From a virus: DNA of 39,980 nucleotides. The stretch is taken from IMG/VR virus record IMGVR_UViG_3300036945_000615, positions 1 through 39,980 of that record; one strand, 5' to 3'. Below are positions 21 to 39,980 of the stretch, piece after piece (position 1 is the stretch's first letter; every line of letters starts with the position of its first letter). The notes below the pieces were generated by a model. It was not told the origin of the DNA and ran no database searches. It worked only from the letters and a program-made list of their open reading frames with translations. The position numbers and the translations under genes are program-made.

Positions 21-590
21 GGCCGGGCGTACAACGTCGTGATGAGCGAGCCAGAAGCCGACAGGATGGTGAAGGCGTGGCGGCGCGCGAACCCGTGGGC
101 GTCTGTGTACTGGTCCGAGCTTGAAGACGCCTACACGCGCGCCATGCGCAACCCCAACCATGTGTTCGCGGTCGGGCGGGTCAAGTACCTGTTCGACGGC
201 GTGCATCTGTGGTATTCTCTGCCTTCCGAGCGCGTGCTGCGCTACCCGTTCGCCCGCTTGGATGCTGACGGCGTCACCTACGCGAAGTGCTCTTGGAAGC
301 CTGCCGCAACGGCGAAAGAATGGCCGCGCGCGCGGCTCTGGAAAGGGCTGGCGTGCGAGAACATCACGCAGGCGATTGCGGCCGACATCCTGCGGGAAGC
401 ACTGGCCAAACTGGAGCGCGACGGCGTGACCGCGCACGTCCACGACGAGATTGTGATTGAGTGCCGTACGGCAGACGCAGAACGCGTCGCCGCGGCGATG
501 CGCCTAGTAATGACGACGCCGCCAGCATGGGCCGAGGGCCTGCCGCTGGGTGTGCAGATCGCTAAACCCATGACGAGGTACGGCAAATAA
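1..590 (+). CDS. Family A DNA polymerase, C-terminal part (continues from the right end)
   Basis: This is the 3' part of the polymerase that begins at 38604. The frame is open from base 3, and the ATG at 18 is an internal Met rather than a start. Joined across the 20-bp overlap the protein is 648 aa. This part carries polymerase motif C as VHDEIVIE, with joined residues H600, D601 and E602, where D601 and E602 are expected to bind the catalytic metals. The stop codon TAA (588-590) shares its last base with the ATG of the downstream primase-helicase (TAATG), so the two replication proteins are probably translationally coupled. The identification is firm because motifs A, B and C all fall in order across the joined protein. 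Confidence 0.95.
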   Translation, partial: GAFAAMGRAYNVVMSEPEADRMVKAWRRANPWASVYWSELEDAYTRAMRNPNHVFAVGRVKYLFDGVHLWYSLPSERVLRYPFARLDADGVTYAKCSWKPAATAKEWPRARLWKGLACENITQAIAADILREALAKLERDGVTAHVHDEIVIECRTADAERVAAAMRLVMTTPPAWAEGLPLGVQIAKPMTRYGK

Positions 591-2875
591 TGACAAGCCA
601 ACGTGAGTTCGTAGACTTTCTGGTGTCGCTCGCGCCTGACGGCGAGACGCCGCTGATTGTGACGCAGCGTCCGCGCAAGGACGACCCGAGCAAGTACACG
701 TACGCCGCCGCGCTGCCGTCGGCGCGCCTGCGGGACGGCGCTGCGGTGTTCGGCAACACGGCCAGCTTCGTGCTGGACCGTATGGGCGACAAGCCGAGCG
801 CGTCGCTCGCCAATGCCGGGCGCGTGCTGGTCATGGTGCTGGACGACATCGGGCAGGGCTCCAAAGCGCCGGACATCGCGCCGACGTGGGTCATGGAAAC
901 GTCCCTAGGTAACTTCCAGTGGGGCTATGCGTTCCAAACTAATTCGCAGCCTGAGCCCGGCGAGTTCGCCGCGGCCATCAAAGCCATCGCCGCCGCGGGC
1001 TACACAGACCCCGGTGCTATCAACGCCGCGCGTAACTTTCGCCTGCCGGGCTCTGTGAACCTGAAACCCGATAAAGGTAAGTGGCCTGCGGCGCTGCGTG
1101 AGTTTCACCCGGATGTAGCTTATACATTACAGGAGCTTCTGGACGCGATGGGCGTGACGCCCGGGGAGGCGTCGGCTCCTATCACTGCCGTACGTCTGAG
1201 CGACGACGGCGAGAACGACAGTGTGCTGCAGTGGCTGGCGTCGCAGGGCCTTGTGCTGGGGCGCGCCAACGCCGAGGGCTGGGTGTCTGTGGTCTGCCCG
1301 AACCATGCAGAGCACACTGACGGAAAGACCGAGGGGCGTTATCACCCGGCTGACAGGGGCTACAAATGCCTCCACGCGCACTGCCAGCACATCACGACCG
1401 AGAGCTTCCTTGAGTGGGTGGGGGAGAACGGTGGCCCGCAGGTCGCGCTAGGCGTGCGTGCGGAGCTTCTCAGTGAGCGTCTGGCGCAGTCGCTGAACAA
1501 GCTGGCCCCGCAGCCTAATCCGATTGTGGAGGCAACTGAGGCGCAGGAACGCCAGCGGATCGAGAAGGCCGAGTGGTTCACGCGCTACGCGTATCTGGAG
1601 TCCGACGACGCCTACTTCGATCTGGTCCATCGTAAGGTTGTGATGCGCTCCGCGTTCAACGCGCTCTACGCCCACGTCGTCACCAAGAACATCAAGACCG
1701 ACGCGCACTGCGACGCAGCCACGTGGTACAACCAGAACCGCGTCGCGATGGGCGGCAAGTCACTGGTGGCGCTCACGTATGCAGCTGGCGACGGCGCGCT
1801 GGTCTCCCACAACGGCGAAACCAAGGGGAACCTCTGGGTGGACGCCCGCCCAGTTGTGACTGCAACTCATTCGCAACTGGACATCGGGTTGTGGCTTGAC
1901 CTGTGTCGTACGCTGGTCCCTGAGCAGGATGCGCTGGAGCACATCTGGAACGTCATGGCGTTCAAGGTCCAGAACCCGCGGCGCAAGATCAACCATGCGA
2001 TCCTGCACATGGGTGCGGAGGGCACCGGCAAAGACACGATGTGGTCGCCTTTCCTCTGGAGCGTGTGCGGTCCAGATCACAGGAACCGGGCGATTGTGAA
2101 CGGCGGCGAGTTGTCAGCCCAGTGGGGCTACGCCTACGAGAGTGAAATCCTTGTGCTGAACGAGCTTCACGAGCCCGAGGCGGCGCAGCGCCGGGCGCTG
2201 GCCAACAGGCTCAAGCCGCTGATCGCCGCGCCGCCCGAGACCATTTCGGTCAACCGCAAGATGATGCGCCCCTACGACGCTGCGAACCGGCTTTTCGTGC
2301 TGGCGTTCTCCAACGAAGCCGTCCCCATCTCAACGTCGTCCGAAGACCGCCGCTGGTTTGTCGTCCGCAGCGCCGCGCAACGCCTGCCAGAAGCGCAGGC
2401 GACGGCGCTGTGGGAGTTTTACGCGGGTGGGGGCTACGAAGCCATAGCGCACTGGTTGCACGCGCGTGACGTGTCCAAGTTCAACCCGGCTGCGATCCCG
2501 GCTGCGACAGAAGCCAAGCAACAGATGGTCAGCAACGGGCTGTCTACGGCCGAGGATTACTTGGTGGGTATGATCGAAAAACGTTCGGGGGAGTTTGCGC
2601 GGGGCTATGTGTCATCCCGCTGGTTTGCGCTGCTGGATCGGTTGCAGGGGTCTGCGCCGCCGACCGTCAAGCTACACAAGAACGCGCTGTTCCACGCGTT
2701 GAAAGAGGCAGGCTGGATCGACCGGGGGCGTATCCATTCGGCCGAGTTCCCGTCGAAGGTCGACGTGTGGTGTGCGCCTGAGTTCAAGGACACGTCCAAG
2801 AGTGACCTGCGCCGACTCGTCGAGCCAGCGCAGGTTGCAGGTGTGGTCACGCCATTTCGGAAAGGGCCCGCTTGA
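590..2875 (+). CDS. Bifunctional primase-helicase (AEP-like primase plus SF3-type helicase)
   Basis: A 761-aa replication protein expected to unwind DNA and lay down primers for the adjacent polymerase. The first ~200 residues resemble RepB-type archaeo-eukaryotic primases, with an acidic pair D85-D86 in VMVLDDIG and the segment RNFRLPGSVNLKP. A probable zinc site follows (C236, H239, C260, C265 region). The C-terminal half resembles the D5/DUF5906-type SF3 ATPase: Walker A GAEGTGKDT at 475-483, a Walker B-like strand EILVLNELHEPE near 519-530, and an SF3-like segment with RRWFVVRS. It starts on the last base of the polymerase stop codon. Its 3' end overlaps the convergent winged-helix gene by 29 bp, with no room for a separate terminator. 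The primase assignment is less certain than the ATPase. Confidence 0.88.
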   Translation: MTSQREFVDFLVSLAPDGETPLIVTQRPRKDDPSKYTYAAALPSARLRDGAAVFGNTASFVLDRMGDKPSASLANAGRVLVMVLDDIGQGSKAPDIAPTWVMETSLGNFQWGYAFQTNSQPEPGEFAAAIKAIAAAGYTDPGAINAARNFRLPGSVNLKPDKGKWPAALREFHPDVAYTLQELLDAMGVTPGEASAPITAVRLSDDGENDSVLQWLASQGLVLGRANAEGWVSVVCPNHAEHTDGKTEGRYHPADRGYKCLHAHCQHITTESFLEWVGENGGPQVALGVRAELLSERLAQSLNKLAPQPNPIVEATEAQERQRIEKAEWFTRYAYLESDDAYFDLVHRKVVMRSAFNALYAHVVTKNIKTDAHCDAATWYNQNRVAMGGKSLVALTYAAGDGALVSHNGETKGNLWVDARPVVTATHSQLDIGLWLDLCRTLVPEQDALEHIWNVMAFKVQNPRRKINHAILHMGAEGTGKDTMWSPFLWSVCGPDHRNRAIVNGGELSAQWGYAYESEILVLNELHEPEAAQRRALANRLKPLIAAPPETISVNRKMMRPYDAANRLFVLAFSNEAVPISTSSEDRRWFVVRSAAQRLPEAQATALWEFYAGGGYEAIAHWLHARDVSKFNPAAIPAATEAKQQMVSNGLSTAEDYLVGMIEKRSGEFARGYVSSRWFALLDRLQGSAPPTVKLHKNALFHALKEAGWIDRGRIHSAEFPSKVDVWCAPEFKDTSKSDLRRLVEPAQVAGVVTPFRKGPA

Positions 2876-3254
2876 TGGTGTCGCGTCCCTCGGGCGTCAT
2901 CTCGTAACCCCAGCCCCAGATAGTCTTGATGGCTGGGTATCCGATGGCGCTGCGCAGGTAGCAAATCTCCGCAGCGAAGTAATTGATGTCATGCCGCTCT
3001 TGCCCCCGCCGCTCTTGTCTGGCGGGGACAAGTTCGGCGAGCATGGCGACAGACAGGGGACGCGGGCAGTTGTAGAGCGCCAGCGCCACCTTCGCAGTGC
3101 CGAGGTTCCTGAGTTTCAGGTGCGCGCGCAGACGCCGGGCGGGCAGGTCCAGCGTGGTTGAGTCCACACTGTCGTACGCTCGCCATGCGTCTAACTCGGC
3201 TTCTGCGTCAGCCAGTTTGGCGCGCAGCATAGTTAGCTCATCACTTTTGGTCAT
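2847..3254 (-). CDS. Coiled-coil plus OmpR-like winged-helix protein, candidate regulator
   Basis: A 135-aa protein whose first ~25 residues form a heptad-rich helix (MLRAKLADAEAELDAW). The second half has the pattern of an OmpR/PhoB-type winged helix: LSVAMLAELVPA, then ICYLRSAIGYPAIKTIWGWGYEMTPEG, where a recognition helix leads into the wing hairpin with its usual G-x-GY turn. There is no receiver domain. It is the last gene of the leftward operon and overlaps the 3' end of the primase-helicase. An AGGAG ribosome site lies just upstream of ATG 3254. By family it would bind DNA; the target is unknown, but the iterons and palindromes between 8.7 and 9.8 kb are natural candidates. It could also be a non-regulatory wHTH adaptor. 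Confidence 0.7.
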   Translation of the reverse strand: MTKSDELTMLRAKLADAEAELDAWRAYDSVDSTTLDLPARRLRAHLKLRNLGTAKVALALYNCPRPLSVAMLAELVPARQERRGQERHDINYFAAEICYLRSAIGYPAIKTIWGWGYEMTPEGRDTIKRALSEMA

Positions 3255-3318
3255 CGTTCAACGCTCCTAGAACTACACACCCCATCAGGATGTAAAAAAC
3301 CCACAGGTCGGGGGTCAT
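3241..3318 (-). CDS. 25-aa single-span membrane microprotein
   Basis: A short open frame encoding MTPDLWVFYILMGCVVLGAL followed by NDDQK. Residues 5-20 form one hydrophobic segment long enough to span a membrane, with a short charged tail. Its ATG overlaps the TGA of the upstream gene (ATGA at 3315-3318), and its own end overlaps the start of the winged-helix gene by 14 bases. The ribosome site of that downstream gene lies inside it. The coupling pattern and the hydrophobic content support a real gene, although at this length chance cannot be excluded. Function unknown. Confidence 0.5.
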   Translation of the reverse strand: MTPDLWVFYILMGCVVLGALNDDQK

Positions 3319-3644
3319 GCGTTCACCTGTGTCGTACGCCAGATGTTGTCGATCAGGTCGTAGACCTTCACGTCGTGCGGCATGAGGGGGATAACATGGT
3401 CGCCGCGGTCAAAGATCGCCGCGAACGTGTTCACGTACAGCTGGTAACGCGTGGTCAGCAGGCCGGTCTCGGGCATGCTCTTGAACGCCTTGGCGAGAGG
3501 TTGGGCGATCCCGGTAACCAGCGTGTGGACCAGTATGGTTTCCTTGTCGCGCGCCTCCCGGCGCTTGGCAACGGTAGCTGCGAAGTCGTCGTCGTCGCCG
3601 CTCCCCCTTTCTAGGGGGAGCGGGATGGTGTTGTTAGTTGTCAT
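3315..3644 (-). CDS. Conserved-looking phage protein of unknown function (109 aa)
   Basis: I do not recognise this protein. It starts with MTTNNTIPLPLERGSGDDDD, an acidic linker, followed by a basic helix (VAKRREARDKETI) and a mostly helical body ending VYDLIDNIWRTTQVNA. The frame is open further upstream, but ATG 3644 is preferred: it has a GAGG ribosome site 8 bases upstream and overlaps the last codons of the preceding gene by 11 bases, the arrangement seen throughout this operon. Its stop codon overlaps the start of the 25-aa membrane microprotein. No catalytic motif or membrane segment is visible. Confidence 0.7.
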   Translation of the reverse strand: MTTNNTIPLPLERGSGDDDDFAATVAKRREARDKETILVHTLVTGIAQPLAKAFKSMPETGLLTTRYQLYVNTFAAIFDRGDHVIPLMPHDVKVYDLIDNIWRTTQVNA

Positions 3645-3846
3645 CTGCTTGGACCTCGATCTTGGTGATGTGGGTGAACCCGTCGCGGCGCGCGCGGCAG
3701 TGTGCGCTGTCCACGGACAGCGCACGGTAGGTCAGGACGTGATGGTCCTGATTCGGGTCGATGGCGTACACTTTGTATGTACGCCAGTAGGTGGGCGGGT
3801 TGACATACCGGCTTGTGCGCGCCGGGAACGCGAGAACGTTTGACAT
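3634..3846 (-). CDS. Small phage protein of unknown function (70 aa)
   Basis: A basic, aromatic-rich protein (MSNVLAFPARTSRYVNPPTY, then WRTYKVYAIDP). The alternation of hydrophobic and polar residues suggests a small beta-rich fold. It starts one base inside the stop codon of the upstream gene (TAATG at 3846) and overlaps the next gene by 11 bases, so it sits in a tightly coupled chain. I recognise no family. Short beta proteins in phage accessory operons are often host-takeover factors, but nothing in this sequence shows that directly. Confidence 0.65.
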   Translation of the reverse strand: MSNVLAFPARTSRYVNPPTYWRTYKVYAIDPNQDHHVLTYRALSVDSAHCRARRDGFTHITKIEVQADDN

Positions 3847-4061
3847 TACTGGACCGTCGCTTTCTGCTTCTGTTCCATCGCTTCCTCTGCGATGTGCTTC
3901 TGTTGCTGTTCGCTTGCGTACGTGGCCAGCTTGATGGCCAGCGCGCGCGCGTCTTCATAGTCGTCACGGTTGCCGAGAACGCGCGACAGCTGCATCACTG
4001 TGTCCAGTGCGTGCAGGATCGTGATCAGTTCGCTTTCGGTGAACCCGAGAGAGTCTTGCAT
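3846..4061 (-). CDS. Small helical protein of unknown function (71 aa)
   Basis: A short, predominantly helical protein (FTESELITILHALDTVMQLSR near the start) ending in a Gln/Glu/Lys-rich tail (EQQQKHIAEEAMEQKQ) that could form a coiled coil. An AAGGGA ribosome site lies upstream of ATG 4061, and the stop overlaps the next start by one base. The leader of this gene carries the repeated hairpin at 4142-4165, so it heads a sub-operon of four or five small genes. No family recognised. Confidence 0.7.
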   Translation of the reverse strand: MQDSLGFTESELITILHALDTVMQLSRVLGNRDDYEDARALAIKLATYASEQQQKHIAEEAMEQKQKATVQ

Positions 4062-4141
4062 AGTGGTCTAGTCCCTTGTGCTTGGTTGGGTGTTTAGCTT
4101 AGCGCAGGAATTGATTAAGAGCTAGTTCCCGCACGCAGAAA

Positions 4142-4165
4142 AGCCCGGCGCTTGTGCGCCGGGCT
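4142..4165 (-). repeat. Intercistronic hairpin, copy 1
   Basis: A perfect 10-bp stem (arm AGCCCGGCGC, TTGT loop as written on the + strand). Read leftward it is followed by TTTCTGCGTGCGG, so a short U-tract is present. It lies between the 59-aa membrane protein gene and the start at 4061. It could be a leaky terminator or an mRNA processing or stabilising element. The leader to the next start codon is about 80 bases, longer than at the other copies. Confidence 0.85.
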
Positions 4166-4183
4166 GTTAGTGCAGTGGGTGGG

Positions 4184-4363
4184 TTAGTCGCGCAGGGCGC
4201 TAGGAAGGCGGTTATGCCTTACGCTCATGAACAGCGCCATGAACGCCGCGGTCTGGTATAGCTCAACTTCGACGTTGAGCGTCAGGTTGGTGACGGCCGT
4301 GATCAGGATCGCATAGCCGAGGGCGATGCTGCAGTTCAGGAAGGTTTCTGCTAGGCGTTGCAT
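4184..4363 (-). CDS. Small two-segment membrane protein (59 aa)
   Basis: This gene reads MQRLAETFLNCSIALGYAIL, then ITAVTNLTLNVEVELYQTAA and FMALFMSVRHNRLPSALRD. Residues 8-29 form a hydrophobic span. A second, shorter hydrophobic patch (FMALFMSV) is followed by a basic tail, so one or two membrane passes are possible. A strong AGGAG ribosome site lies 7 bases before ATG 4363, 11 bases after the stop of the upstream gene. Small inner-membrane proteins in early phage operons can alter envelope or entry functions, but no family is recognised and the role is open. Confidence 0.75.
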   Translation of the reverse strand: MQRLAETFLNCSIALGYAILITAVTNLTLNVEVELYQTAAFMALFMSVRHNRLPSALRD

Positions 4364-4374
4364 GTGTGAGTCTC

Positions 4375-4572
4375 CTACTTGGTCCCGGTTGCGTCGAAGT
4401 AGTCGAGGGCTGTTTCCAGCATGCTGATCTGCCGCCTGATATCGTCGACATGCCAGAAGCGGACGCCCCGGCGAGCATACTCGCCAATAGTCTGCATGGT
4501 GTCGCGCGCCATAGCGCGCGCGTCGACTAGCTCGGGCGCGGGGCGTTCCTTGGTGGTGTGCTTGGTTGTCAT
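4375..4572 (-). CDS. Small charged helical protein (65 aa)
   Basis: A soluble, charged protein (MTTKHTTKERPAPELVDARA, then a helical body with RRGVRFWHVDDIRRQISMLE). It has a good AGGAG ribosome site and lies 11 bases from both neighbours. The spacing, ribosome site and codon usage match the surrounding genes, so the gene looks real, but no motif gives a function. The length and high charge would suit a protein-protein modulator. Confidence 0.65.
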   Translation of the reverse strand: MTTKHTTKERPAPELVDARAMARDTMQTIGEYARRGVRFWHVDDIRRQISMLETALDYFDATGTK

Positions 4573-4583
4573 TGGTGAGGCTC

Positions 4584-4766
4584 CTATTGCTTGCCTGTGA
4601 TGATACGATAGTCGCGGGCTAGTCCATCCCGCACCGCAGCGACTTGCGCACTACGGAGCATCTGGGTGGCTTCTGAGAGGCTCATTTTGGAGTCCTTGAA
4701 CCAGTCGCGCCAGCTGCCTCTGTCGATGTCGCGAAACTGCAGGTTATATCTGTCGCTCGTTGTCAT
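4584..4766 (-). CDS. Small protein of unknown function (60 aa)
   Basis: It begins MTTSDRYNLQFRDIDRGSWR and continues with an amphipathic helix (SLSEATQMLRSAQVAAVRDG). An AGGA ribosome site sits about 11 bases upstream in the CA-rich leader typical of this operon. It is the first gene after hairpin copy 2 at 4808-4831. No domain is recognised and no membrane segment is visible. Confidence 0.6.
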   Translation of the reverse strand: MTTSDRYNLQFRDIDRGSWRDWFKDSKMSLSEATQMLRSAQVAAVRDGLARDYRIITGKQ

Positions 4767-4807
4767 GGGAGTTTGTTCCTGTGTTTGTGTGGGTAGATAC
4801 CGCCAAA

Positions 4808-4831
4808 AGCCCCACGCTTGCGCGTGAGGCT
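4808..4831 (-). repeat. Intercistronic hairpin, covarying copy 2
   Basis: This has the same architecture as the other hairpins (10-bp stem, four-base TTGN loop) but a different stem, with left arm AGCCCCACGC and right arm GCGTGAGGCT. Pairs are kept at nine of ten positions although several bases differ from the other copies. Read leftward it is followed by four T. It lies between the SprT gene and the 60-aa gene. Preserved pairing with changed sequence argues that the RNA structure matters rather than the DNA sequence. Confidence 0.8.
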
Positions 4832-4846
4832 CTGTAGGCTGGTCTG

Positions 4847-5500
4847 CTAGTCGGCGGCGATCATACGTGTAAGGCGGCCGTCGTCATCGCACACAAGGTT
4901 CAGCCCCGGCTTACCCCATGCGTTCGCCTTGCAGTGCGGGCAGGTATAGCGGGTCTTGCTGGCCTTGCGCGCGACGCGCCGCGCCTTGTCGTCATCGGTT
5001 TCAACCGGCGACGTGTACCGCACGGCCCAGCCGTCGGCGATCAACTGGCGCGCCGTGATCTGGAACGCGTGACCGTCCAGAATGTAGTGCGTCATATGCT
5101 GGCCAACCTGAGCGCCGCCCGGCTTGCCTGTGTCGCTGGTCATCAAACCAATGGCCAGCATGCGCCGGGCAAACTCGCGATTGTGATATCCGAACGGGCT
5201 GGGCTTCCCGTTCAGGTGCTGGTCAAGGTGGACCATTTCGTGCGCGATAGTGGACAGGATTTGCTCTGCCGTACGTTCGGCAAAAGTCGCGGGGTTGAGG
5301 CCGATTTCCGCGATTGTCGACGCTGGGTCGTTCTGCGCCGTGTAGCCTTCGGGCATGACGTAGCCGTATGCGTGACGGGTACGCGCCAGCGTGAACATCA
5401 CGTCTGGCAATCGGCCATCAAACAGCGCCATGTTGAGCGTCTGGTATGCCAGCTGAAAGTCGCCATAGGTCTCGGGCGTAGGTGAGTGATCGTGTGTCAT
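4847..5500 (-). CDS. SprT-like zinc metalloprotease
   Basis: A 217-aa protein with the HExxH zinc-protease signature as HEMVH at residues 87-91 and a third ligand candidate, H106, in GYHNREF. This is the SprT/Spartan arrangement. The C-terminus has a zinc-ribbon start, CPHC at 187-190, followed by WGKPGLNLVC; the fourth ligand expected after C204 is replaced by DDD, so the ribbon may be degenerate. SprT proteins of this class cleave DNA-bound or cross-linked proteins. The start at 5500 is chosen over a 286-aa alternative because of a GGAAGG ribosome site and because the protease homology begins there. It lies one base after the preceding stop and follows the AAA+/vWA-like pair. Confidence 0.9.
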   Translation of the reverse strand: MTHDHSPTPETYGDFQLAYQTLNMALFDGRLPDVMFTLARTRHAYGYVMPEGYTAQNDPASTIAEIGLNPATFAERTAEQILSTIAHEMVHLDQHLNGKPSPFGYHNREFARRMLAIGLMTSDTGKPGGAQVGQHMTHYILDGHAFQITARQLIADGWAVRYTSPVETDDDKARRVARKASKTRYTCPHCKANAWGKPGLNLVCDDDGRLTRMIAAD

Positions 5501-5501
5501 G

Positions 5502-5804
5502 TTAGATGCCTTCCATTTCTGATTTGACTGCTTCGATTGTCTGATACGCTTCGTCATCCGGCGCGTCGCGCGACATGCGAGACAGCACGTCACTAACGCG
5601 TTGGCGCATGTCGTTAGAGCCATCTTCGAAAGCGCCGTCGGCGGTCTCGGCGTTGCGCGTGTCGGCGTCGTTCTCGGCGGCGCTGCTTTCTTTCCAGATA
5701 GCCTCAAGTAGCGTCTGGCGCTTCCATTGCGGGATGTGCGTCAGGGGTAAGTCAAAGTCGCCGATGTGCAGCGTGGCTAAGTCATCGCTCATGTAAATGT
5801 TCAT
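5502..5804 (-). CDS. Acidic protein of unknown function (100 aa)
   Basis: It begins MNIYMSDDLATLHIGDFDLP and is strongly acidic in the middle and C-terminal parts (SSAAENDADTRNAETADGAF, DAPDDEAYQTIEAVKSEMEG). The ATG at 5804 has an AGGA ribosome site in the shared CA-rich leader, just after hairpin copy 3. It is separated by one base from the SprT gene, so the two are probably coupled. Acidic phage proteins sometimes mimic DNA, but the charge pattern alone does not establish that here. Confidence 0.65.
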   Translation of the reverse strand: MNIYMSDDLATLHIGDFDLPLTHIPQWKRQTLLEAIWKESSAAENDADTRNAETADGAFEDGSNDMRQRVSDVLSRMSRDAPDDEAYQTIEAVKSEMEGI

Positions 5805-5841
5805 GTGTGCGGTCCTGTGTTGGGGGTTGGTAGTACGCAAG

Positions 5842-5869
5842 CTAGCCCGGCGCTTGTGCGCCGGGCTAG
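5842..5869 (-). repeat. Intercistronic hairpin, copy 3
   Basis: The 10-bp core stem (5844-5867, arm AGCCCGGCGC) is extended by CT/AG to 12 bp. Read leftward it is followed after 3 bases by the box TTGCGTACTA (5831-5840), then a CA-rich leader with AGGA and the start at 5804. It lies 12 bases upstream (+ coordinate side) of nothing else coding: the vWA-like gene ends at 5881. Confidence 0.85.
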
Positions 5870-5880
5870 TAGTCTGCAGG

Positions 5881-6735
5881 CTAGGCTGCGATTTGCTGGC
5901 GCGCCAGTTCGTGCGCAGTCACGTAATTGGCTTCCAGCCACTTACGCGCCGCCGCGTCGGTCTTGAATGGCGATTTATCGCCACACAGGCCCGGGACCGC
6001 AATAAGCGCGTTCTCGGCCTTCAGGATCGGCGCGTAGTACGCGAGAAGTTTCGCCGGGTTGTTTGGGAAGCCGGCGTCACCAAACGCGGGGCGGAGCGCG
6101 TTAGCCTTGCCGTGCAGGTTGTAGAGCACTTCAGCACTCGCCGCCTTAAACCCGTCGCTTGAGAAACTAGCGACCATGCCCCAGACGGCGCGCGCCATAT
6201 CCAGCGGGCGGGTCTCGACCCGCACAAGGCATGTCGCGGTCTCGTTCGTGGATGTGTGCGCTAGGTACAGGTCAACCGCGTGGCCGGTCATGGCCAGCTT
6301 TCGAACCAGCGCCATGACGGCGACGCCGCGGCGTTCCCGGTCACCGTCGCCGATACCGCCGCTCATGTAGGTTTCAACCACGATAGTCAGCGGGGCTAGA
6401 CCCTCTGCAGGCACGCGTCGCCGCATATGCATTGGCGAGCCTGCTAGGTAGGCTGGAACGTCAACGAACCCCCCGGCCATAGCATGGCCCCACTTGGGGA
6501 CGTTGTCGCTGTAGAGGCTATCCGGCTCCTCTATGGTCGCTAGGATCGCCTCGGCTTTGTCGGCTAGCTTCTGGTCACCTGTGGCCAGCGCCCGGCGCGT
6601 CACTGCAGGGTCATAGGACCATGAGTCATATGTGGGTTTGTCATGCAAGTAGGCCGACATATGCTCAAAGTCAGGGAAGATTGCGACGGGGACGCGGGGT
6701 CGACCCGGGCCTTTGGCAGTCGTTATCAGTGTCAT
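5881..6735 (-). CDS. vWA-like partner of the AAA+ ATPase (DUF7192-like)
   Basis: A 284-aa protein. Residues from about 115 on read LTIVVETYMSGGIGDGD, then RRGVAVMALVRKLAMTGHAV and DLYLAHTS. This is the beta-strand, Ser/Gly loop, helix, beta-strand order of a von Willebrand A fold, with a degenerate metal site (the usual DxSxS is not intact). The segment WGHAMAGGFVDVPAYLAGSP with a following MRRRVP is, from memory, similar to phage DUF7192 proteins. Its gene directly follows the MoxR/CobS-like ATPase, the pairing known for MoxR-vWA systems. Start 6735 was chosen from an AGGA site in the CA-rich leader; 15 further upstream codons are open. The vWA assignment is an inference from pattern and context. 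Confidence 0.6.
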   Translation of the reverse strand: MTLITTAKGPGRPRVPVAIFPDFEHMSAYLHDKPTYDSWSYDPAVTRRALATGDQKLADKAEAILATIEEPDSLYSDNVPKWGHAMAGGFVDVPAYLAGSPMHMRRRVPAEGLAPLTIVVETYMSGGIGDGDRERRGVAVMALVRKLAMTGHAVDLYLAHTSTNETATCLVRVETRPLDMARAVWGMVASFSSDGFKAASAEVLYNLHGKANALRPAFGDAGFPNNPAKLLAYYAPILKAENALIAVPGLCGDKSPFKTDAAARKWLEANYVTAHELARQQIAA

Positions 6736-6781
6736 GTGTGTGTGTGTCCTGTGTTGGTGGTGGTGGGTGCTAGTACGCAAG

Positions 6782-6809
6782 CTAGCCCGGCGCTTGTGCG
6801 CCGGGCTAG
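6782..6809 (-). repeat. Intercistronic hairpin, copy 4
   Basis: This is identical in its 12-bp extended stem to copy 3, and again followed leftward by TTGCGTACTA (6771-6780), a CA-rich leader and AGGA before the start at 6735. It lies between the AAA+ ATPase stop and the vWA-like gene. A CGTACG site sits at 6817-6822, between the ATPase stop codon and the hairpin. Confidence 0.85.
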
Positions 6810-6830
6810 TAGTCTGCCGTACGTTAGAGG

Positions 6831-8219
6831 CTAGGCGGCGACCATGCGGCGCTGATCAGGCGACAGGTCGGCCAAGTAGGTCATGTCCGCTGCTTCGTCT
6901 GCAGTGAACCCGGCTTCGATCAGGCGCGCGCCGGATATAGACGCTTGCGGGGTAATCATGACTTTGAGACCCGCGGCGCGCGCCTTGGCGCGTGTCGCTT
7001 GAACCCGTGCGGCCCATTCGGGATTACCGCAGATAGCGACTTCCAGCGTGGTGTCATAGTCCCAAGCGAGGCGCGCCCCAAACCTTTGCAGGAACGCCGC
7101 GTCGATGCGCGCCGCGCCGCAGTAGTCTGACGTCGCGCCGCCGCCCCATGTGTTTGCGGCAGCGATACACACAAAGTCGGGATGCGCTTCGATCAGTTCA
7201 CCATTAGGCAGGCTCATGATGCGATTTGCGAGGGGCGCGTTCATGGCAAGTAGAGCCTCGTTCGAACCCCGGTCGACTTCATCCAGCAGCACTAGGCCGC
7301 CATTGCGGAAAGCCTGTACAAACTGGGTCTCATGGTAGTGTCCAGCGCCGTCCACGAACCCCTCAAGTTGATGGGCCATAGTCATGCTGCCGTGGAAGTG
7401 AAACTTGAGACCCAGCGCCTTGGCAGCTGCTTTTGCTGCAGTCGTCTTACCGCCTTGCGACGGCCCGGCGATCCACACATTGACTTTCGCACTAAGTGCT
7501 TTGATCAGCTTGGGAAGCAAGTAGTGCTGCAGGCCGTCCACAGTGTGGACGTGGGCCGGCGTGGTCACGGTTAGCTGAGTCGACGGGCGCTGGTTGATAC
7601 GCTCGATAACAGGCACCAGCGCCGCGGAAATCAGCTGCTTGACGGCGTCGAAGTCAATCGCAGGTGTCTGCGGTTGGGCCGGTTGGGGTTGGTTCGCTTG
7701 AACAGTGGCGACGAACGCCGCGAGTGCTGCGGCGATGTCGGTTGACTGGGTCTGGGTCGGGGCTGGCGTCTGGTCAACGTCTGCCGTACGCTTGATGCGG
7801 CGGCGGGGTTGATCGGTCGGGGTCTGGTCGGCGTCATACTGGTCAACCGCGCGGGCGATGACGTCGGGCGGCAGTATGCTGGCCAGCGTTGAGGGCTGGT
7901 CTGTCGCTTTCGCGCCAGCTGTGAGCGTGTAGACCGGGTAAGCGTCGGGTTGGGTTGTGACGTTGCCAGTCGTGACCACGTCCGCAGCGATTGACCGGGC
8001 GTAGGTCTCACCTTGGGGAGTGTATGGCGCGCGCCATGTTTCGTCCGATTTGTTATAGGAGAACCCGTGTTCACGGATATCGTTGCGAAGCGGGTAGGTC
8101 CCTTCAGACAGTATGATTTGATGCGGGGTTATCTCGGCTTTGATCGTGCGAGGCTTGCGTGCGCCGGTTGACGCTGGCGACGCCGTGGCGTCGGTTGTGT
8201 TTTTGGGTACGGCGAACAT
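6831..8219 (-). CDS. MoxR/CobS-family AAA+ ATPase
   Basis: A 462-aa protein with a clear AAA+ core: Walker A GPSQGGKTT at 252-260, Walker B GLVLLDEVDRG at 308-318 (D313, E314), sensor-1 asparagine in AAANTWG near N356, and DAAFLQRFG near 373-381 as the arginine-finger region. Family members remodel protein complexes or drive metal insertion together with a vWA partner, and the next gene appears to be that partner. The first ~80 residues (SYNKSDETWRAPYTPQGETY) may be a small substrate- or DNA-binding domain, followed by a Pro/Gln/Thr-rich linker (about 105-185). Start 8219 has AGGA in the CA-rich leader. The exact substrate is unknown. Confidence 0.88.
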   Translation of the reverse strand: MFAVPKNTTDATASPASTGARKPRTIKAEITPHQIILSEGTYPLRNDIREHGFSYNKSDETWRAPYTPQGETYARSIAADVVTTGNVTTQPDAYPVYTLTAGAKATDQPSTLASILPPDVIARAVDQYDADQTPTDQPRRRIKRTADVDQTPAPTQTQSTDIAAALAAFVATVQANQPQPAQPQTPAIDFDAVKQLISAALVPVIERINQRPSTQLTVTTPAHVHTVDGLQHYLLPKLIKALSAKVNVWIAGPSQGGKTTAAKAAAKALGLKFHFHGSMTMAHQLEGFVDGAGHYHETQFVQAFRNGGLVLLDEVDRGSNEALLAMNAPLANRIMSLPNGELIEAHPDFVCIAAANTWGGGATSDYCGAARIDAAFLQRFGARLAWDYDTTLEVAICGNPEWAARVQATRAKARAAGLKVMITPQASISGARLIEAGFTADEAADMTYLADLSPDQRRMVAA

Positions 8220-8268
8220 GTGTTTGTGTCCTGTTTTGAGGGTGACGGTTGGGGGTAGTACGCAAAAC

Positions 8269-8292
8269 AGCCCGGCGCTTGTGCGCCGGGCT
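8269..8292 (-). repeat. Intercistronic hairpin, copy 5
   Basis: Same 10-bp stem and TTGT loop. Read leftward it is followed by GTTTTGCGTACTA, so a short U-tract and the TTGCGTACTA box (8256-8265) are fused. Next come the leader and the AGGA ribosome site of the AAA+ gene. It sits between that gene and the 33-aa membrane microprotein. Confidence 0.85.
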
Positions 8293-8312
8293 GGTAGGCT
8301 GTCAGCTGGTTC

Positions 8313-8414
8313 CTATTGGGCCAGAGAGAAGATGACGCGCGCGCCGCTGATAGCGACGACGGCGGCGCACGCGTTCAGCGTGAGCCAGAGTAGCAGTGTG
8401 GGTATGGTCTTCAT
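8313..8414 (-). CDS. 33-aa membrane microprotein
   Basis: The frame encodes MKTIPTLLLWLTLNACAAVV followed by AISGARVIFSLAQ. A Lys near the N-terminus precedes an almost unbroken hydrophobic stretch, so the peptide should insert in the inner membrane. The Cys at 16 lies after LNA, which is not a good lipobox. An AGGAAAG ribosome site lies in a leader (GCAAAACACATG) identical to that of the 68-aa gene upstream. The gene has its own hairpins on both sides, and its ribosome site and leader make it a convincing gene despite its size. Function unknown. Confidence 0.65.
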   Translation of the reverse strand: MKTIPTLLLWLTLNACAAVVAISGARVIFSLAQ

Positions 8415-8452
8415 GTGTTTTGCTTTCCTGTGTCAGTGCTAGTACGCAAACG

Positions 8453-8476
8453 AGCCCGGCGCTTGTGCGCCGGGCT
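8453..8476 (-). repeat. Intercistronic hairpin, copy 6
   Basis: Same 10-bp stem and loop. Read leftward it is followed by CGTTTGCGTACTA, which contains the TTGCGTACTA box, and then by the ribosome site of the 33-aa microprotein at 8414. It lies 10 bases after the stop of the 68-aa gene. Confidence 0.85.
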
Positions 8477-8486
8477 GGTAGGCTGA

Positions 8487-33093: not shown

Positions 33094-33401
33094 GTGAAGC
33101 CTCCGAAGAAGCCGCAGCCGCCAACGCGGAGTCCAAGCGTACGATAGAGAGGCACTTCCAGAGCATAGCTCTGACGATCCTCACCGGAGTTACCGCGTGG
33201 TTCGGGCTCACCGTGCAAGACAGCACGGTCAAGCTGGCGACGCTCACTGAGCGTTTGTCAGGATTAGAGAGACAAATTTCTGACAACCGGGAGCAAATCT
33301 ACACGGCCCGGGACGCGCAGAAAGACTTGGAGCTACGCGATTCGGTGCTGGCTAACATAGCCTCCCGGGTGCTCGCGCTTGAAAACGCCAAGCGGAAATG
33401 A
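33090..33401 (+). CDS. Membrane-anchored coiled-coil protein (103 aa)
   Basis: Residues ~24-46 (FQSIALTILTGVTAWFGLTV) form one membrane span; the rest is a Leu-heptad coiled coil (LATLTERLSGLERQISDNRE). It overlaps the preceding stop (ATGA) and immediately precedes the holin. Its place at the head of the lysis cassette suggests a lysis accessory such as a second holin or antiholin; a virion protein associated with ejection is the alternative. Confidence 0.6.
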   Translation: MSEASEEAAAANAESKRTIERHFQSIALTILTGVTAWFGLTVQDSTVKLATLTERLSGLERQISDNREQIYTARDAQKDLELRDSVLANIASRVLALENAKRK

Positions 33402-33832: not shown

Positions 33833-33959
33833 TTTCTGCACGCTGTACGAGCCTGTGTCGTACGACAGCGAGCTAGACACGCCTATGACAGTGTCACAGA
33901 TCGAGCCGCTCAACGCGAAGTGGCTGGCGGTGTGCGAGCCTAGTTCCACGCCAGAATAG
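33720..33959 (+). CDS. o-spanin (Rz1-like lipoprotein), overlapping the i-spanin gene
   Basis: A 79-aa lipoprotein in a different frame that begins inside the i-spanin gene and continues 127 bases beyond it. MQKRLKLWLILPAPILLCLS precedes the lipobox Cys (LCLSAC, C22), a clear lipoprotein signal; a Pro-rich stretch follows (IEPVPVAPPKADF), as in Rz1 proteins. GAGG lies a few bases upstream of ATG 33720. An upstream extension to 33630 is open but would spoil the signal peptide. Its 3' end overlaps by 20 bp the convergent 29-aa gene. Confidence 0.85.
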   Translation: MQKRLKLWLILPAPILLCLSACALVGIEPVPVAPPKADFCTLYEPVSYDSELDTPMTVSQIEPLNAKWLAVCEPSSTPE

Positions 33960-34217: not shown

Positions 34218-34474
34218 CGGAAATACTTCTCGCCGCTGCCAACTTCGTAGCTCTTGTTGGCGTAGCCGGGGACCGGCCCGCTGGCCAGCGTCTCTTTCGG
34301 CTGCGTCGAGGCGATGGCGTTGTCAAGCCCGGTCAGGAGCACGCTCAACGCCTCCACCGTACGCCGGGCGTAGATAAGCTCGCGCTCGACGTTGTCGCGC
34401 TCGCTCATCCAGTGGTCGCGGGTTGCCGCCAGCCGCTGCTCGTGTTCGTGGTCAAGTTTAGGTCCGTTCATCAT
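34214..34474 (-). CDS. Coiled-coil protein of unknown function (86 aa)
   Basis: Starts MMNGPKLDHEHEQRLAATRD and continues with long charged helix (WMSERDNVERELIYARRTVE, ALSVLLTGLDNAIAS), then a short Gly-rich tail. The start at 34474 overlaps the helicase TGA (ATGA), and the longer frame is rejected because it lies inside the helicase gene. Probably an oligomeric accessory protein to the helicase; this is inferred only from coupling. Confidence 0.65.
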   Translation of the reverse strand: MMNGPKLDHEHEQRLAATRDHWMSERDNVERELIYARRTVEALSVLLTGLDNAIASTQPKETLASGPVPGYANKSYEVGSGEKYFR

Positions 34475-35769
34475 CCACGCAGCTCCTTCACGGCGGCGTC
34501 CGATACGCCGCGTTTTTCTTGTAGGGCAGTCCAGATACGCTCGTCTATCGTACGCTCGGTCAGGAGCGCATACACCCACACGTCGTGTTTTTGGCCTGAC
34601 CTGTGCAGGCGTCCGATGGTCTGCTCGTAGAGTTCCAAGGACCACGGGAGGGAGAGGAAAACCAGTGTACAGCCGCCGAACTGAAGGTTGAGTCCGTGCC
34701 CGGCTGATTTGGGGTGAAGTGCAAGTAGCTCAACGGAGCCGCTGTTCCATCGCTCAACGACATCTTTATCATCCATTGTCTGCAGGTTGGGGTACAGGCG
34801 CTTGAGTTGCGCGAGTTCTTCCTTGTAGTTGTACACGATGATCGTGTTGGCCCGCTGGTTCTCGTCTAGGAGTTCCTGCAGCCGGTCAAACTTGTGCTGG
34901 CTGATCCACGTCGCGTCACCATCAGAGTTGTGATACGCGAACCCCGACGCCATCTGGGTCAGCTTCTGTGACGCCGCCGCGGCGTTGACGGCGGTGATGT
35001 CTTTACCGGCAAACTCGATGACGTAGTGCTTGCGCATCTCGTCGTACGGCTTGCGATCCGGCATGACGCAGGTCAGCTGCACCGTGTGAAGCTCAGGTAG
35101 CGTGTCGGCGTAGTCTTTGTTTTCCAGCAAGTAGGTCGCAGGCTTGATCTTCTGCATGACGCTGGCCAGCGCGTCCGGTCGCGGCTCGTACTGGCCCCAA
35201 TCGCGGTTCACCACAAAGAAGTGCTGCTGGATGAACGCGCCTTTGGCCCGGCCGAGTAGAGACTTATCGACGATCTTGCACTGGCCAAAGACATCTTCCA
35301 AACCATTTGAAGTGAACGACCCGGTCATTCCCCATCGTACGTCGATGTGCTCGATGGCTTTGTCCAGAACCTTGAACCTCTTGCCGGAAGGGTCTTTCAG
35401 CCGGGTAAGCTCGTCAAAGATGACCCCGTCAAACTCGTCAAGGTCCGGCAGCGTCTGGATGTTGTCGTAGTTGGTCACCACGACGTCGGCGTTGTGAGAC
35501 GCGAACGCGCGCTGGCGTTTGGCGGGCGCGCCGGTCGCAATCGCGATGTTGATGGGCAAGCCCCACTTGTCGCGCTCTTGTTTCCAGACTTCGTCGCAGA
35601 CGCGCTTCGGGGCGAGCACCAGCCATCGCTGGACGTCGGGGCGCTTCATGATTGACGTCAGCGCGATCAAGGTCTTGCCTGCGCCAACTTTGGCTAGGAC
35701 CAGCGCACGGTCTTTGGAAGCCAGAAAATTCGCGGCGTCGGCTTGGTAGGGGCGGAGTTTGAAAGTCAC
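34471..35769 (-). CDS. SNF2-type SF2 helicase/ATPase
   Basis: A 432-aa DNA translocase. RPYQADAANFLASKD at 6-20 is the Q-like start. Walker A is AKVGAGKT at 26-33, Walker B is GVIFDELTRLK with D119-E120 (DELT instead of the common DEAH/DESH), motif III is GMTGS at 147-151, and motif VI is QTIGRLHRSGQ at about 383-393. These compact SNF2 proteins occur with VRR-NUC nucleases, family A polymerases and D5/VapE-type primases in phage replication modules, the company it keeps here. It is coupled by ATGA on both sides. Confidence 0.92.
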   Translation of the reverse strand: MTFKLRPYQADAANFLASKDRALVLAKVGAGKTLIALTSIMKRPDVQRWLVLAPKRVCDEVWKQERDKWGLPINIAIATGAPAKRQRAFASHNADVVVTNYDNIQTLPDLDEFDGVIFDELTRLKDPSGKRFKVLDKAIEHIDVRWGMTGSFTSNGLEDVFGQCKIVDKSLLGRAKGAFIQQHFFVVNRDWGQYEPRPDALASVMQKIKPATYLLENKDYADTLPELHTVQLTCVMPDRKPYDEMRKHYVIEFAGKDITAVNAAAASQKLTQMASGFAYHNSDGDATWISQHKFDRLQELLDENQRANTIIVYNYKEELAQLKRLYPNLQTMDDKDVVERWNSGSVELLALHPKSAGHGLNLQFGGCTLVFLSLPWSLELYEQTIGRLHRSGQKHDVWVYALLTERTIDERIWTALQEKRGVSDAAVKELRG

Positions 35770-36071
35770 GCGGCACCTTCAACAAGATGCGGCTTGCCGC
35801 GTTTGATCTCCCAGCGCCAGACGCGGCCGTCGTCGTGGTGAATTTTGAGCGCCGCCCACGCCTCGCGGCCGAGTTCCGCGTAGTTGCGAGCGTACGCTAT
35901 AGCTTCGTCGAGCGTCAGCGTGCAGACAAGGTTGCCGCTGGCCGTCGAAAGACAGAAAGGAAAGTTCATGTGTGTCGGCTCTTTTCTGAGTGACGCTGTG
36001 CGTTCGGCCATGCGCGCTTGTGTGTGCTCGCAGTCGTGTGAGTTGCAAGGCATACAAAAGAAACTGCTCAT
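35766..36071 (-). CDS. Small protein with N-terminal Cys/His cluster (101 aa)
   Basis: From ATG 36071, which overlaps the VRR-NUC stop (ATGA), the protein begins MSSFFCMPCNSHDCEHTQAR, a C-x2-C-x4-C-x-H cluster that could bind zinc. The C-terminal half (LTLDEAIAYARNYAELGREA, then WAALKIHHDDGRVWRWEIKR) is a compact alpha/beta domain. A second start at ATG 35969 (MNFPFCLSTASGNL) with an AAAGAG site would give a 67-aa protein without the cluster. The overlap pattern favours the long form, and both may be made. Function unknown; it lies between nuclease and helicase. Confidence 0.6.
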   Translation of the reverse strand: MSSFFCMPCNSHDCEHTQARMAERTASLRKEPTHMNFPFCLSTASGNLVCTLTLDEAIAYARNYAELGREAWAALKIHHDDGRVWRWEIKRGKPHLVEGAA

Positions 36072-36445: not shown

Positions 36446-37570
36446 ATGAGCCAACACAGTAAGATCGTCGGTGGAAGCACCGCCAAGCGTGTGATAAACT
36501 GCCCCGGCAGCGTCACACTGGTAAGCAAAATGCCCCCGAAGCCGTCAAGCAGCTACGCCGATGAAGGTACGCTCCTTCATGATACCATCGCGGCTATGCT
36601 GACGCTGGACTACCCGGCTGACGGGTTTCTCGGCAAGAGCTACGGCAGCGCCGTACTCACCCAAGACCTGATCGAAGACAAGATCGTGCCCGCGCTGGCG
36701 CGTCTCGCCGAGGTTGACCCCGACAGGACGCTGGAATTTGAGGTTGAAGCCTTCGTGGGTTTCGGCGACTTCATGCCCGGCGTGTTCGGCTCTGCTGATA
36801 TCATCGGCAGGCGCGGCAACACCGCCATCGTGCTAGACTGGAAGTTCGGCAACGGCGTGATGGTCGACGCCGAGGAAAACGAGCAGCTGATGTTCTACGC
36901 GGCCGCAGCGATGCGGACGCCTGCAACGCAGTGGGCGTTCGAAGGGATCGACGAAGTCGAGCTTGTGATCATCCAGCCGCCAGCCATGCGGCGCTGGAAG
37001 ACAACCGTGAAGCGCCTGAAGCGTTTCGAGGCTGAGCTACTCGGCGCGGTGAACCTGTCCACGAAAGCCGCAGCCCCTCTCAAGAGCGGAACATGGTGCC
37101 GGTGGTGTTCCGCCTCCCCGACGTGCCCGGCGCAAAACGGCGAAGTCGAACGTACGCTCAAGACGCAACTCAAGGGCGTCGATGCGAAACTGCTAGGCGA
37201 ACTCCTGACGCAAGCTGACGTGCTTGAAGACTGGATCAAGTCGGCGCGTGAGCTTGCCGAGCACATGCTCACATCCAACGTGCCGGTGCCCGGCTACAAG
37301 CTGGTCCCCAAGCGCGCGACGCGCTCGTGGGCCAACGAAGGCATCGCCAAGGCGACGCTACTCGGGATGGGCGTGCAGTCGTCGGCGCTGGTCGAGACCA
37401 AGATGAAGTCGCCCGCGCAGGTCGAGAAACTCTTGCCCCGTGGCGAGAAACTCCCGGCCGATCTCGTGCAGGCGATATCTTCTGGTAACACTATTGCTCC
37501 AGAGAGTGACCCACGGCCCGCGGTCATGACCGTCGGGAAATCCCTCGCAGCTGCATTGGGGAAACTATGA
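36446..37570 (+). CDS. RecB/Cas4-like PD-(D/E)XK nuclease (DUF2800-like)
   Basis: A 374-aa nuclease. An early motif E40/H45 (DEGTLLHDT) is followed by the core GVFGSADIIGRR with D118 and VLDWKFGNG with D131 and K133. Cysteines C19, C218, C221 and C227 (CRWCSASPTCPA) match the iron-sulphur pattern of AddB/Cas4 nucleases. Start 36446 (MSQHSKIVGGSTAKRVINCP) has AAGGGACGG upstream; 14 further codons are open. It is the first gene of the rightward replication operon and probably trims DNA ends for recombination or replication. Confidence 0.88.
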   Translation: MSQHSKIVGGSTAKRVINCPGSVTLVSKMPPKPSSSYADEGTLLHDTIAAMLTLDYPADGFLGKSYGSAVLTQDLIEDKIVPALARLAEVDPDRTLEFEVEAFVGFGDFMPGVFGSADIIGRRGNTAIVLDWKFGNGVMVDAEENEQLMFYAAAAMRTPATQWAFEGIDEVELVIIQPPAMRRWKTTVKRLKRFEAELLGAVNLSTKAAAPLKSGTWCRWCSASPTCPAQNGEVERTLKTQLKGVDAKLLGELLTQADVLEDWIKSARELAEHMLTSNVPVPGYKLVPKRATRSWANEGIAKATLLGMGVQSSALVETKMKSPAQVEKLLPRGEKLPADLVQAISSGNTIAPESDPRPAVMTVGKSLAAALGKL

Positions 37571-37883: not shown

Positions 37884-38530
37884 CCACCGCACTCACCACT
37901 TTCGGAAACGCCAAGCTGCCGTCAGTCGCAACGCTGTCGTCGGCGCTCAAGAAGAACGTCGAGAACATCGCCCCCTCGGGCATGGCCATCCTCAAGTTCG
38001 ACAAGACCGGCGCTTGGGTCTTCGGCGCGAACGCCGATGAAACCGAGGAAGGCTCCCTGTGGGCCGTCAACCCGTACTCGTTCGCTCACGGCTTCATCGC
38101 TTGGGGCGACGGACAGCCGGTCGGCGAAGTCATGGCCCCCATGACCGACGACCTGCCGCAAGTCGGCCCGCTCCCCCCGGGCGTCGATGACAAGGGCTGG
38201 CAGACGCAGGTCGGCCTCGCCCTGAAGTGCATCTCCGGGCAGGACAAGGGCCTTGAGGTTCGCTTCTCCACGACGTCTGTCGGCGGCAAGCGCGCCGTGC
38301 AGGCTCTCGGCATCGCTCTCGCCGAGCAGATCGACAAGGACCAAGACAACCCGGTCGCTGTCGTGACGCTGGAAGGCTCCAGCTACAAACACTCGTCGTA
38401 CGGCAAAGTCCATACGCCCGAGTTCGCTATCGTCAAGTTCGTTTCGCTTGACGGTGCTGACGACGTGCAGGTCGCTCCCCCGGCTCCCGCCCCCGAGCCG
38501 GAAAAGACCACGCGTCGCCGTCGCGCCTAA
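37880..38530 (+). CDS. Putative ssDNA-binding protein (216 aa)
   Basis: This beta-rich protein (GMAILKFDKTGAWVFGANAD, SLWAVNPYSFAHGFIAWGDG, VALKCISGQDKGLEVRFSTT) occupies the slot between the DUF2800-like nuclease and the DNA polymerase, where phage modules of this kind encode an OB-fold ssDNA-binding protein. It is not clearly like DUF2815. The C-terminus is Pro/Ala-rich and ends in a basic TTRRRRA, not the usual acidic tip of SSBs. It is the last gene before the strong terminator. Assignment by context. Confidence 0.55.
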   Translation: MTTALTTFGNAKLPSVATLSSALKKNVENIAPSGMAILKFDKTGAWVFGANADETEEGSLWAVNPYSFAHGFIAWGDGQPVGEVMAPMTDDLPQVGPLPPGVDDKGWQTQVGLALKCISGQDKGLEVRFSTTSVGGKRAVQALGIALAEQIDKDQDNPVAVVTLEGSSYKHSSYGKVHTPEFAIVKFVSLDGADDVQVAPPAPAPEPEKTTRRRRA

Positions 38531-38603: not shown

Positions 38604-39980
38604 ATGCAAACACTCTGGATTGACATTGAGACGCGTTCGCAGTGCGACCTGAAGGTCCGCGGCGTCTACAACTACGCGAAAGACAAAAGCACACAGGTTC
38701 TGTGTATCGCCTACGCGTTTGACGACGACGACGTGAAAGTCTGGACGCCGGGCAACAAGCTGCCGACGCAGGTGCTGCAGCACAAGGGCCAGATACGCGC
38801 CCACAACGCCGCGTTCGAGCGTCTGGTGCTGACGGCGTGGGGTTGCCCGTGGCGTCTTGAGCAGTTCTACTGCACGGCGTCCCAAGCCCGCGCCAACTGC
38901 GCGCCCGGCTCACTGGAAGACGTCGCGCGGTTCTCTGGCACTGACATGCGCAAGGACCACAGAGGTTCGATGCTGGTCCGCAAGCTGTGCATCCCTGACA
39001 AGGGCGGCACGTTCAACGACGACCCGCTGCTGATGGCAGAGCTTTACGAATACTGCGCTCAGGACGTTCGTACGATGCGCGAGGCGTCACAAGCCATGCG
39101 CGAGTTGAGCGCACTGGAGCTGAGCGAGTATCACACCAACGAGCGGATCAACGACCGAGGCATCAAGCTGGATGTCGACCTGTGCCGCGCGGCCATGAAG
39201 TACGCGGCCGCAGAGCTTGCCGAGGTTCAGACGCTCGCGGCTGACATCACGCGCGGTGAGGTTCTCACCCTGAGAAGCCCCAAGCTGCGCGAGTGGGTCT
39301 GGCGCAACGTGGGTGAAGTGGCCCATGACCTGATGATGAAAGACGGCAAGGTGTCGCTGGACAAGACCGTACGACGGAACTTGCTGGCGCTGGCAGAGGA
39401 AAGCAACAATGAAGTCCCTCCTGAAGTGGCTGACGTTATTCAATGCGCCGATGATATTTGGGCGTCGTCTACGGCGAAATTCCAACGCCTGCTTGGCCTA
39501 TCGGATTTGGTCGATCACCGGGTACGAGGGGCCTTTGTCTTTGCTGGAGGCGCGGCCACTGGTCGCGCGTCTAGCTACGGCGCTCAGCTGCATAACTTCA
39601 CTCGGAAATGTGTTAAAGAAGCCGACGCCTGCCGCGACGCAATGGTCGCCGGTCAGGCGATCACTCCCGCCTTTGGAAAGCGTGTCACGGACGCTCTCAA
39701 AGGGATGCTTCGGCCTGCGCTCGTATCGGCGTCTGGAAACTCACTTGTGGTCGCAGACTGGTCCAGTATCGAAGCCCGGGTTACTCCTTGGGCATCGGCA
39801 AGCCCGGCAGGCGAGCGCAAGCTGGAGCTTTTCCGATCTGGCGCGGATGTCTATCGGGTGAACGCCAGCGCGACGTTCGGCGTGGCTGTCGAGGGTGTGA
39901 CGGACGACCAGCGCCAGATCGGCAAGGTGCAGGAGCTTTCCTGCGGCTTCGGCGGCGGCGTCGGCGCGTTCGCGGCGATG
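38604..39980 (+). CDS. Family A DNA polymerase, N-terminal part (continues at base 3)
   Basis: The first 459 residues of a 648-aa replicative polymerase with proofreading. The 3'-5' exonuclease is intact: D7 and E9 (WIDIETRS), H67-N68 (AHNAAFE), Y150 and D154 (YCAQD). Motif A is VVADWSSIEARV with D385 and E390, and motif B is RQIGKVQELSCGFGGG with R437, K441 and F449. The position equal to E. coli Pol I F762 is Leu445, a variant linked in marine-virus studies to slower, possibly temperate-leaning phages. ATG 38604 follows GGGGATC, 18 bases after the terminator. The frame is open to the window end and resumes at base 3. Confidence 0.95.
   Translation, partial: MQTLWIDIETRSQCDLKVRGVYNYAKDKSTQVLCIAYAFDDDDVKVWTPGNKLPTQVLQHKGQIRAHNAAFERLVLTAWGCPWRLEQFYCTASQARANCAPGSLEDVARFSGTDMRKDHRGSMLVRKLCIPDKGGTFNDDPLLMAELYEYCAQDVRTMREASQAMRELSALELSEYHTNERINDRGIKLDVDLCRAAMKYAAAELAEVQTLAADITRGEVLTLRSPKLREWVWRNVGEVAHDLMMKDGKVSLDKTVRRNLLALAEESNNEVPPEVADVIQCADDIWASSTAKFQRLLGLSDLVDHRVRGAFVFAGGAATGRASSYGAQLHNFTRKCVKEADACRDAMVAGQAITPAFGKRVTDALKGMLRPALVSASGNSLVVADWSSIEARVTPWASASPAGERKLELFRSGADVYRVNASATFGVAVEGVTDDQRQIGKVQELSCGFGGGVGAFAAM

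Follow-up and report, generated by a model that had tools for sequence, protein, structure and literature searches.

CGTACG, present 70 times in the stretch of viral DNA analyzed here (39,980 bases, hereafter the window), forms the invariant center of a soft palindrome that extends beyond it, and DNA-level selection keeps and re-creates these extended sites. Judging from sequence evidence, we give about even credence to their being recognized genome-wide by a dimeric DNA-binding protein that is specific to the clade and probably encoded by the phage; an architectural role would be likelier for it than a promoter-specific one.

The window is a complete phage genome

The window is a virus record with a 20-bp direct terminal repeat (1–20 and 39961–39980). 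A polymerase-like frame begins at 38605, positions 18–590 contain a polymerase fragment, and the relative L205 matches both window ends contiguously, spanning the join. The repeat, the polymerase parts at both ends and the L205 match establish the record as complete, with a circularly closed map of ~39,960 bp, in which the polymerase gene apparently crosses the join (start 38605, end at 590). Structural genes encode a P22-like portal, a P22-like coat with its scaffold, the terminase large subunit and tail spikes; replication and nuclease genes encode a primase-helicase, a superfamily-2 type helicase, a VRR-NUC protein and a DUF2800 exonuclease. As scans of window proteins gave no integrase match, there is no sign of lysogeny. 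The virus is a P22-like podovirus, and its clade is apparently virulent.

No close DNA match for 10000–34000 was found among 50,697 GenBank phage records, and the nearest annotated relatives are phage DSL-LC05 and isolate ctNMl277. The clade is a small group of aquatic bacterial viruses. The host of the window's virus is likely to be a beta-proteobacterium, since the closest cellular loci (~65% portal identity) sit in beta-proteobacterial and Burkholderiales MAGs. Rfam returned zero matches.

The minus-strand left arm has features of its own. A terminator-like repeat (AGCCCGGCGCTTGTGCGCCGGGCT hairpin) occurs in five copies between its genes (4115–4175, 5817–5877, 6757–6817, 8242–8302 and 8426–8486). 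The minus-strand block 2847–8693, which includes SprT-like metallopeptidase, DUF7192 and MoxR/CobS-like AAA genes, is nearly missing from related loci; L199 alone is close, and L200–L202 are distant. SprT and AAA queries for clade contigs over the left arm likewise gave L199 as the only close relative.

CGTACG is enriched beyond codon and dinucleotide usage

An earlier note on this DNA had claimed 70 copies of CGTACG, and our recount gives exactly this number. The array, which has no strand, covers 465–39373 of the complete genome (first start 465, last start 39368), with one copy per ~570 bases, or 1.75 per kb (1750 per Mb). The ~13 copies given in that note as expected agree with base composition (13.3), but the expectation is 16.4 under a dinucleotide and 26.3 under a trinucleotide Markov model, and the ~5-fold excess shrinks under stricter nulls to a real enrichment of ~2.7–3.1 fold, far beyond chance. 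CGTACG ranks first of the 4096 6-mers at orders 0 and 1. A maximal-order model expects 61 copies and is an unfair null, as it already contains CGTAC/GTACG. When synonymous codons were shuffled within each gene, 22.5±4.0 genic copies were obtained vs 61 observed (z 9.5), and the highest count in 300 shuffles was 36; the observed count is thus beyond the codon-preserving range.

As had been noted, the word occurs in all codon phases, in genes of both orientations (19/26/6 by phase in plus-strand genes, 5/4/1 in minus-strand genes) and in intergenic DNA. Nine copies lie outside the gene list used; two of them (39069 and 39368) fall in the polymerase frame from 38605, so that 7 of the 70 are intergenic. 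The dominance of phases 0 and 1 on the plus strand, and the 26 of 70 copies that an order-2 Markov model accounts for, would fit a side effect of codon, dipeptide or dinucleotide usage. Such a side effect is contradicted by the codon-preserving shuffles, the 7 intergenic copies, the palindromic flanks and the preferential conservation described below, and retains next to no probability. As a full explanation it is refuted, and it accounts for roughly 25 background copies; roughly 45 copies are in excess and seemingly functional.

Restriction pressure usually strips phages of 6-bp palindromes. The earlier note had named equal enrichment of other palindromes as a reason to abandon its claim; in the window, 6-bp palindromes are depleted as a class (714 observed vs 891 expected, obs/exp 0.80), and no other one is enriched like CGTACG. 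Among those avoided are GGCGCC (1 vs 44), GCCGGC (3 vs 47), CGATCG (0 vs 29) and AGCGCT (0 vs 22). This strong avoidance, stronger in relatives, suggests heavy restriction pressure. CTGCAG (35 copies in the window) was rejected as a second iterated word: it has no flank signal, and 20 of its 32 genic copies are accounted for by codon shuffling.

CGTACG is the core of an 18-bp palindrome

Alignment of the 70 copies revealed symmetric flank preferences, about CTCTRN-CGTACG-NYAGAG (~18 bp, two-fold symmetric), a longer palindrome that adds to the earlier note. The flank information is weak (0.1–0.7 bits per position) and extends 9 bp from the dyad; none comparable was found around other palindromes of the window genome. 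The consensus, defined on the window, recurs in 47 non-redundant sites exclusive to relatives, which took no part in its definition.

An iterative symmetric weight matrix retained 44 extended sites at an estimated 10% false-positive rate. The best-scoring site (20.0 bits) is intergenic, at 6812–6829. Four more are intergenic (9476–9493, 9556–9573, 20899–20916 and 33853–33870), and 8927–8944 lies outside called genes. The other sites, like these without strand, are at 459–476, 1183–1200, 1901–1918, 3167–3184, 3327–3344, 5264–5281, 7779–7796, 10768–10785, 11817–11834, 12696–12713, 13399–13416, 14787–14804, 15476–15493, 16954–16971, 18067–18084, 18286–18303, 18624–18641, 21208–21225, 22835–22852, 23621–23638, 24543–24560, 25243–25260, 25587–25604, 26483–26500, 26525–26542, 28393–28410, 28732–28749, 30080–30097, 31055–31072, 31631–31648, 33132–33149, 34352–34369, 34543–34560, 35330–35347, 35885–35902, 37145–37162, 38391–38408 and 39362–39379.

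Flexible pyrimidine-purine steps occur at the dyad itself and, on each side, 5 bp away from it. At this distance, 54% of half-sites have a YR step vs 27% in the background (TA 24 vs 5, TG 45 vs 12.5). The flanks depend on an exact core: 41% of exact cores have a flank score of at least 5, vs 1–14% of one-off hexamers. Single changes within the core abolish the flank signal, and variants of the outermost base (GGTACG, TGTACG) keep a trace of it. Such a combination of a strict hexamer core and soft flanks might also be read by an enzyme, for instance a methyltransferase.

Because each site is an inverted repeat, it might act as an RNA or DNA hairpin or cruciform, with a stem around a GTAC loop. 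Yet across 115 unique sites and offsets 1–9, the flanks have no left–right complementarity beyond independent base preferences, and we rejected this extremely improbable reading on that ground. Halves that are no more complementary than independent choice would make them indicate two half-site contacts instead of a hairpin; a two-fold symmetric site with independent half-sites is what a dimeric protein is expected to recognize.

Extended sites are conserved, regained and evenly spaced

In clade alignments that leave out the nearest contig, the core is substituted at a rate of ~0.09 (positions 0.05–0.14 per site) vs 0.18 for the background, in comparisons that are only partly independent as the contigs overlap one another. 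Copies with strong flanks are conserved in 59 of 74 comparisons vs 28 of 52 for weak flanks, the flank score behind these classes being defined on the window. Hexamers of the same composition are kept far less in more diverged comparisons (L206: 0.32 vs 0.72 for CGTACG). Copies gained in relatives are also flanked (mean flank score 3.47 vs ~2.4). Together with the codon-preserving null and the palindromic flanks, this conservation and turnover bear out the earlier claim that selection acts on the DNA and not through codon or dipeptide preference. Selective maintenance and regain are also expected of sites for a dimeric protein.

The 46 strong copies are spaced more evenly than chance in this one genome (CV 0.61, p=0.0002, at one of three flank thresholds tried; the other two gave p=0.005). 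The sites are uniform along genes and do not cluster at gene starts.

Among the loci examined, extended sites are restricted to one narrow phage clade

CGTACG was also counted in related phages, as had been proposed. Twelve contigs of one narrow clade, linked to the window through a portal, coat, exonuclease or AAA gene, share the core and its flanks and contain 169 copies vs 69 expected (2.45 fold). By contrast, 348 other loci, mostly phages with a related portal, coat, primase or exonuclease gene, together with chance pattern matches, avoid the word (416 vs 1304 expected, O/E 0.32). Of the complete relatives, DSL-LC05 has 3 copies and ctNMl277 has 0, with ~10 expected; all 6-bp palindromes stand there at obs/exp 0.28 and 0.43, respectively. 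The window's clade shares the avoidance of other palindromes, with the sign reversed for CGTACG, and the extended sites are restricted to this clade among the loci examined. None of the open-access titles and abstracts listed for this word, or for dispersed palindromic phage sites, reports CGTACG in phages.

The sites could mimic a host word or serve a host nucleoid or partition protein. Distant relatives sit in Burkholderiales MAGs, which leaves some room for such a role. However, TRNCGTACGNYA, present in 9 copies in the 40 kb of the window (225/Mb), reaches at most ~5 per Mb in 399 Pseudomonadota and 151 family-level genomes, where it is usually below its reversed-pattern control, and phage relatives probably of the same host order avoid CGTACG. 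None of these ~550 sampled Pseudomonadota genomes, a sample that may lack the true host, has the flanked site at phage-like density, nor is it enriched in them as a DNA uptake sequence would be in a naturally competent host. We regard host mimicry as very unlikely. Among the roles offered by the earlier note, a protein-binding site is the best fit, and host-word mimicry finds no support in the genomes sampled.

Other patterns were considered and set aside. The exact extended pattern TCTGNCGTACGNCAGA matched 32 stretches across viral_contigs, with no contig at clade-like density, and these were taken as chance. A further iterated palindrome of this build in relatives was rejected: CTCGAG is raised in a few contigs and without clear flank signal. 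Its modest enrichment in L225 (15 vs 2.1), L192, L226, L212 and L175 may reflect codon usage or mark another iterated word in a sister lineage. AGGCCT in L242 (19.9 kb) resembles a repetitive coding unit. In that contig, a GTCGTAGGCCTTGTCCGCAT-like unit recurs seventeen times in near-identical form and probably encodes a repetitive protein domain.

Comparison with known dispersed sites

HIP1 (GCGATCGC) and the alternate cyanobacterial HIPs (GGCGCC and others) (Elhai, 2015, PMC4390886) are likewise exact GC-rich palindromes, strongly over-represented genome-wide at similar density. CGTACG is over-represented in coding and non-coding DNA as they are (70 vs 22–26 expected), its 1750 per Mb falls within the HIP range of ~500–2500 per Mb, and HIPs can also bear flank extensions (PMC4390886). 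A word of this type would be maintained because a methyltransferase of the host or the phage methylates it, with methylation-dependent repair or gene conversion as possible routes. The flank signal left only in GGTACG and TGTACG recalls the tendency of HIP1 deviations to fall at end positions (PMC4390886). HIPs belong to cellular genomes, whereas the CGTACG array belongs to a phage clade, and the O/E is ~2.7 vs 15 or more for GGCGCC in Calothrix (PMC4390886). The phage flanks, moreover, form an 18-bp palindrome that contains YR steps and extends to 9 bp on each side of the dyad, and so rather resembles a site that is bound or bent. In cyanobacteria, HIPs are accompanied by their cognate methyltransferase (PMC4390886), but Pfam scans of the larger window proteins matched none, and the methylation role proposed in the earlier note by analogy with HIP1 thus lacks its enzyme among the phage's own scanned genes. 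The host may supply a methyltransferase for CGTACG. The flanked site is, however, at phage-like density in no sampled Pseudomonadota genome, and the 348 non-clade loci avoid the core. A methylation word is the strongest rival, and we consider it unlikely.

In Cluster A mycobacteriophages such as L5 and TipsytheTRex, a repressor binds many stoperators across the genome and blocks transcription; these are asymmetric 13-mers, bound by a monomer, oriented with transcription and located in promoters or short intergenic spaces (PMC9283540). As here, tens of sites for one sequence are spread across a phage genome. In the window, a putative winged-helix ORF specific to the clade lies beside the primase gene. 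Yet the CGTACG sites are symmetric in core and flanks, evenly spaced and mostly intragenic (7 of 70 intergenic), and the scans, with no integrase match, give no sign of lysogeny. Silencing of this kind is, in our opinion, quite unlikely.

Palindromic sites of architectural or occlusion proteins (parS/Noc/SlmA/MatS type) are symmetric, ~12–18 bp long and scattered over the replicon, genes included, with tens of sites per megabase-scale chromosome. The CGTACG array resembles them in symmetry and in its scatter across the replicon, also within genes, but is denser (~45 sites in 40 kb). Scans of window proteins gave no ParB/Noc-like protein.

Proposed reader and role of the sites

The preferred reading is thus a protein-bound site with a genome-wide role. 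About 45 sites are distributed in coding and non-coding DNA alike over the 39,960-bp circular map. A dimeric, sequence-specific protein of the clade, probably phage-encoded, would occupy these ~18-bp sites and might act on the whole genome by bridging, condensing, shielding or marking phage DNA. We favor this over action at promoters, since the sites are non-polar, evenly spaced and for the most part intragenic; we infer the architectural part only from spacing, symmetry and the absence of promoter clustering. The packaging or condensation signal suggested by the earlier note comes close to this reading and may apply. A host protein could also read the sites.

One candidate reader is a 135-aa protein encoded at 2847–3254 on the minus strand, with a putative C-terminal OmpR-type winged-helix motif (TIWGWGYEM). 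Its profile match is weak (Pfam Trans_reg_C, E=2.6e-4, 21.4 bits, under the 26.2-bit cut-off), its OmpR matches in PDB are also weak (E 0.2–0.7), and the AlphaFold2 model is poor (pLDDT 51). No homologue was found in the other loci at E<=1e-4, where no other clade contig covers the locus, and viral_contigs gave one distant homologue. It has the sole recognizable, putative DNA-binding fold left unassigned among the clade-specific left-arm genes and, as the reader of CGTACG sites, is only a lead.

These results describe one clade that has reversed palindrome loss for CGTACG alone, with symmetric flanks, even spacing and repeated regain. The question of why genomes accumulate one palindrome, asked since HIP1, can here be tested on a genome of 40 kb in which candidate proteins are few. 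Tentatively, and with rather less confidence than for the binding site itself, we suggest that a small, apparently virulent podovirus clade may have evolved an evenly spaced self-address of ~45 18-bp palindromes, whose clade-specific reader would organize, protect or mark the whole DNA. If this is true, the self-address would have arisen within a family whose other members avoid CGTACG, and the array would be a phage equivalent of the architectural sites that are spread over whole chromosomes.
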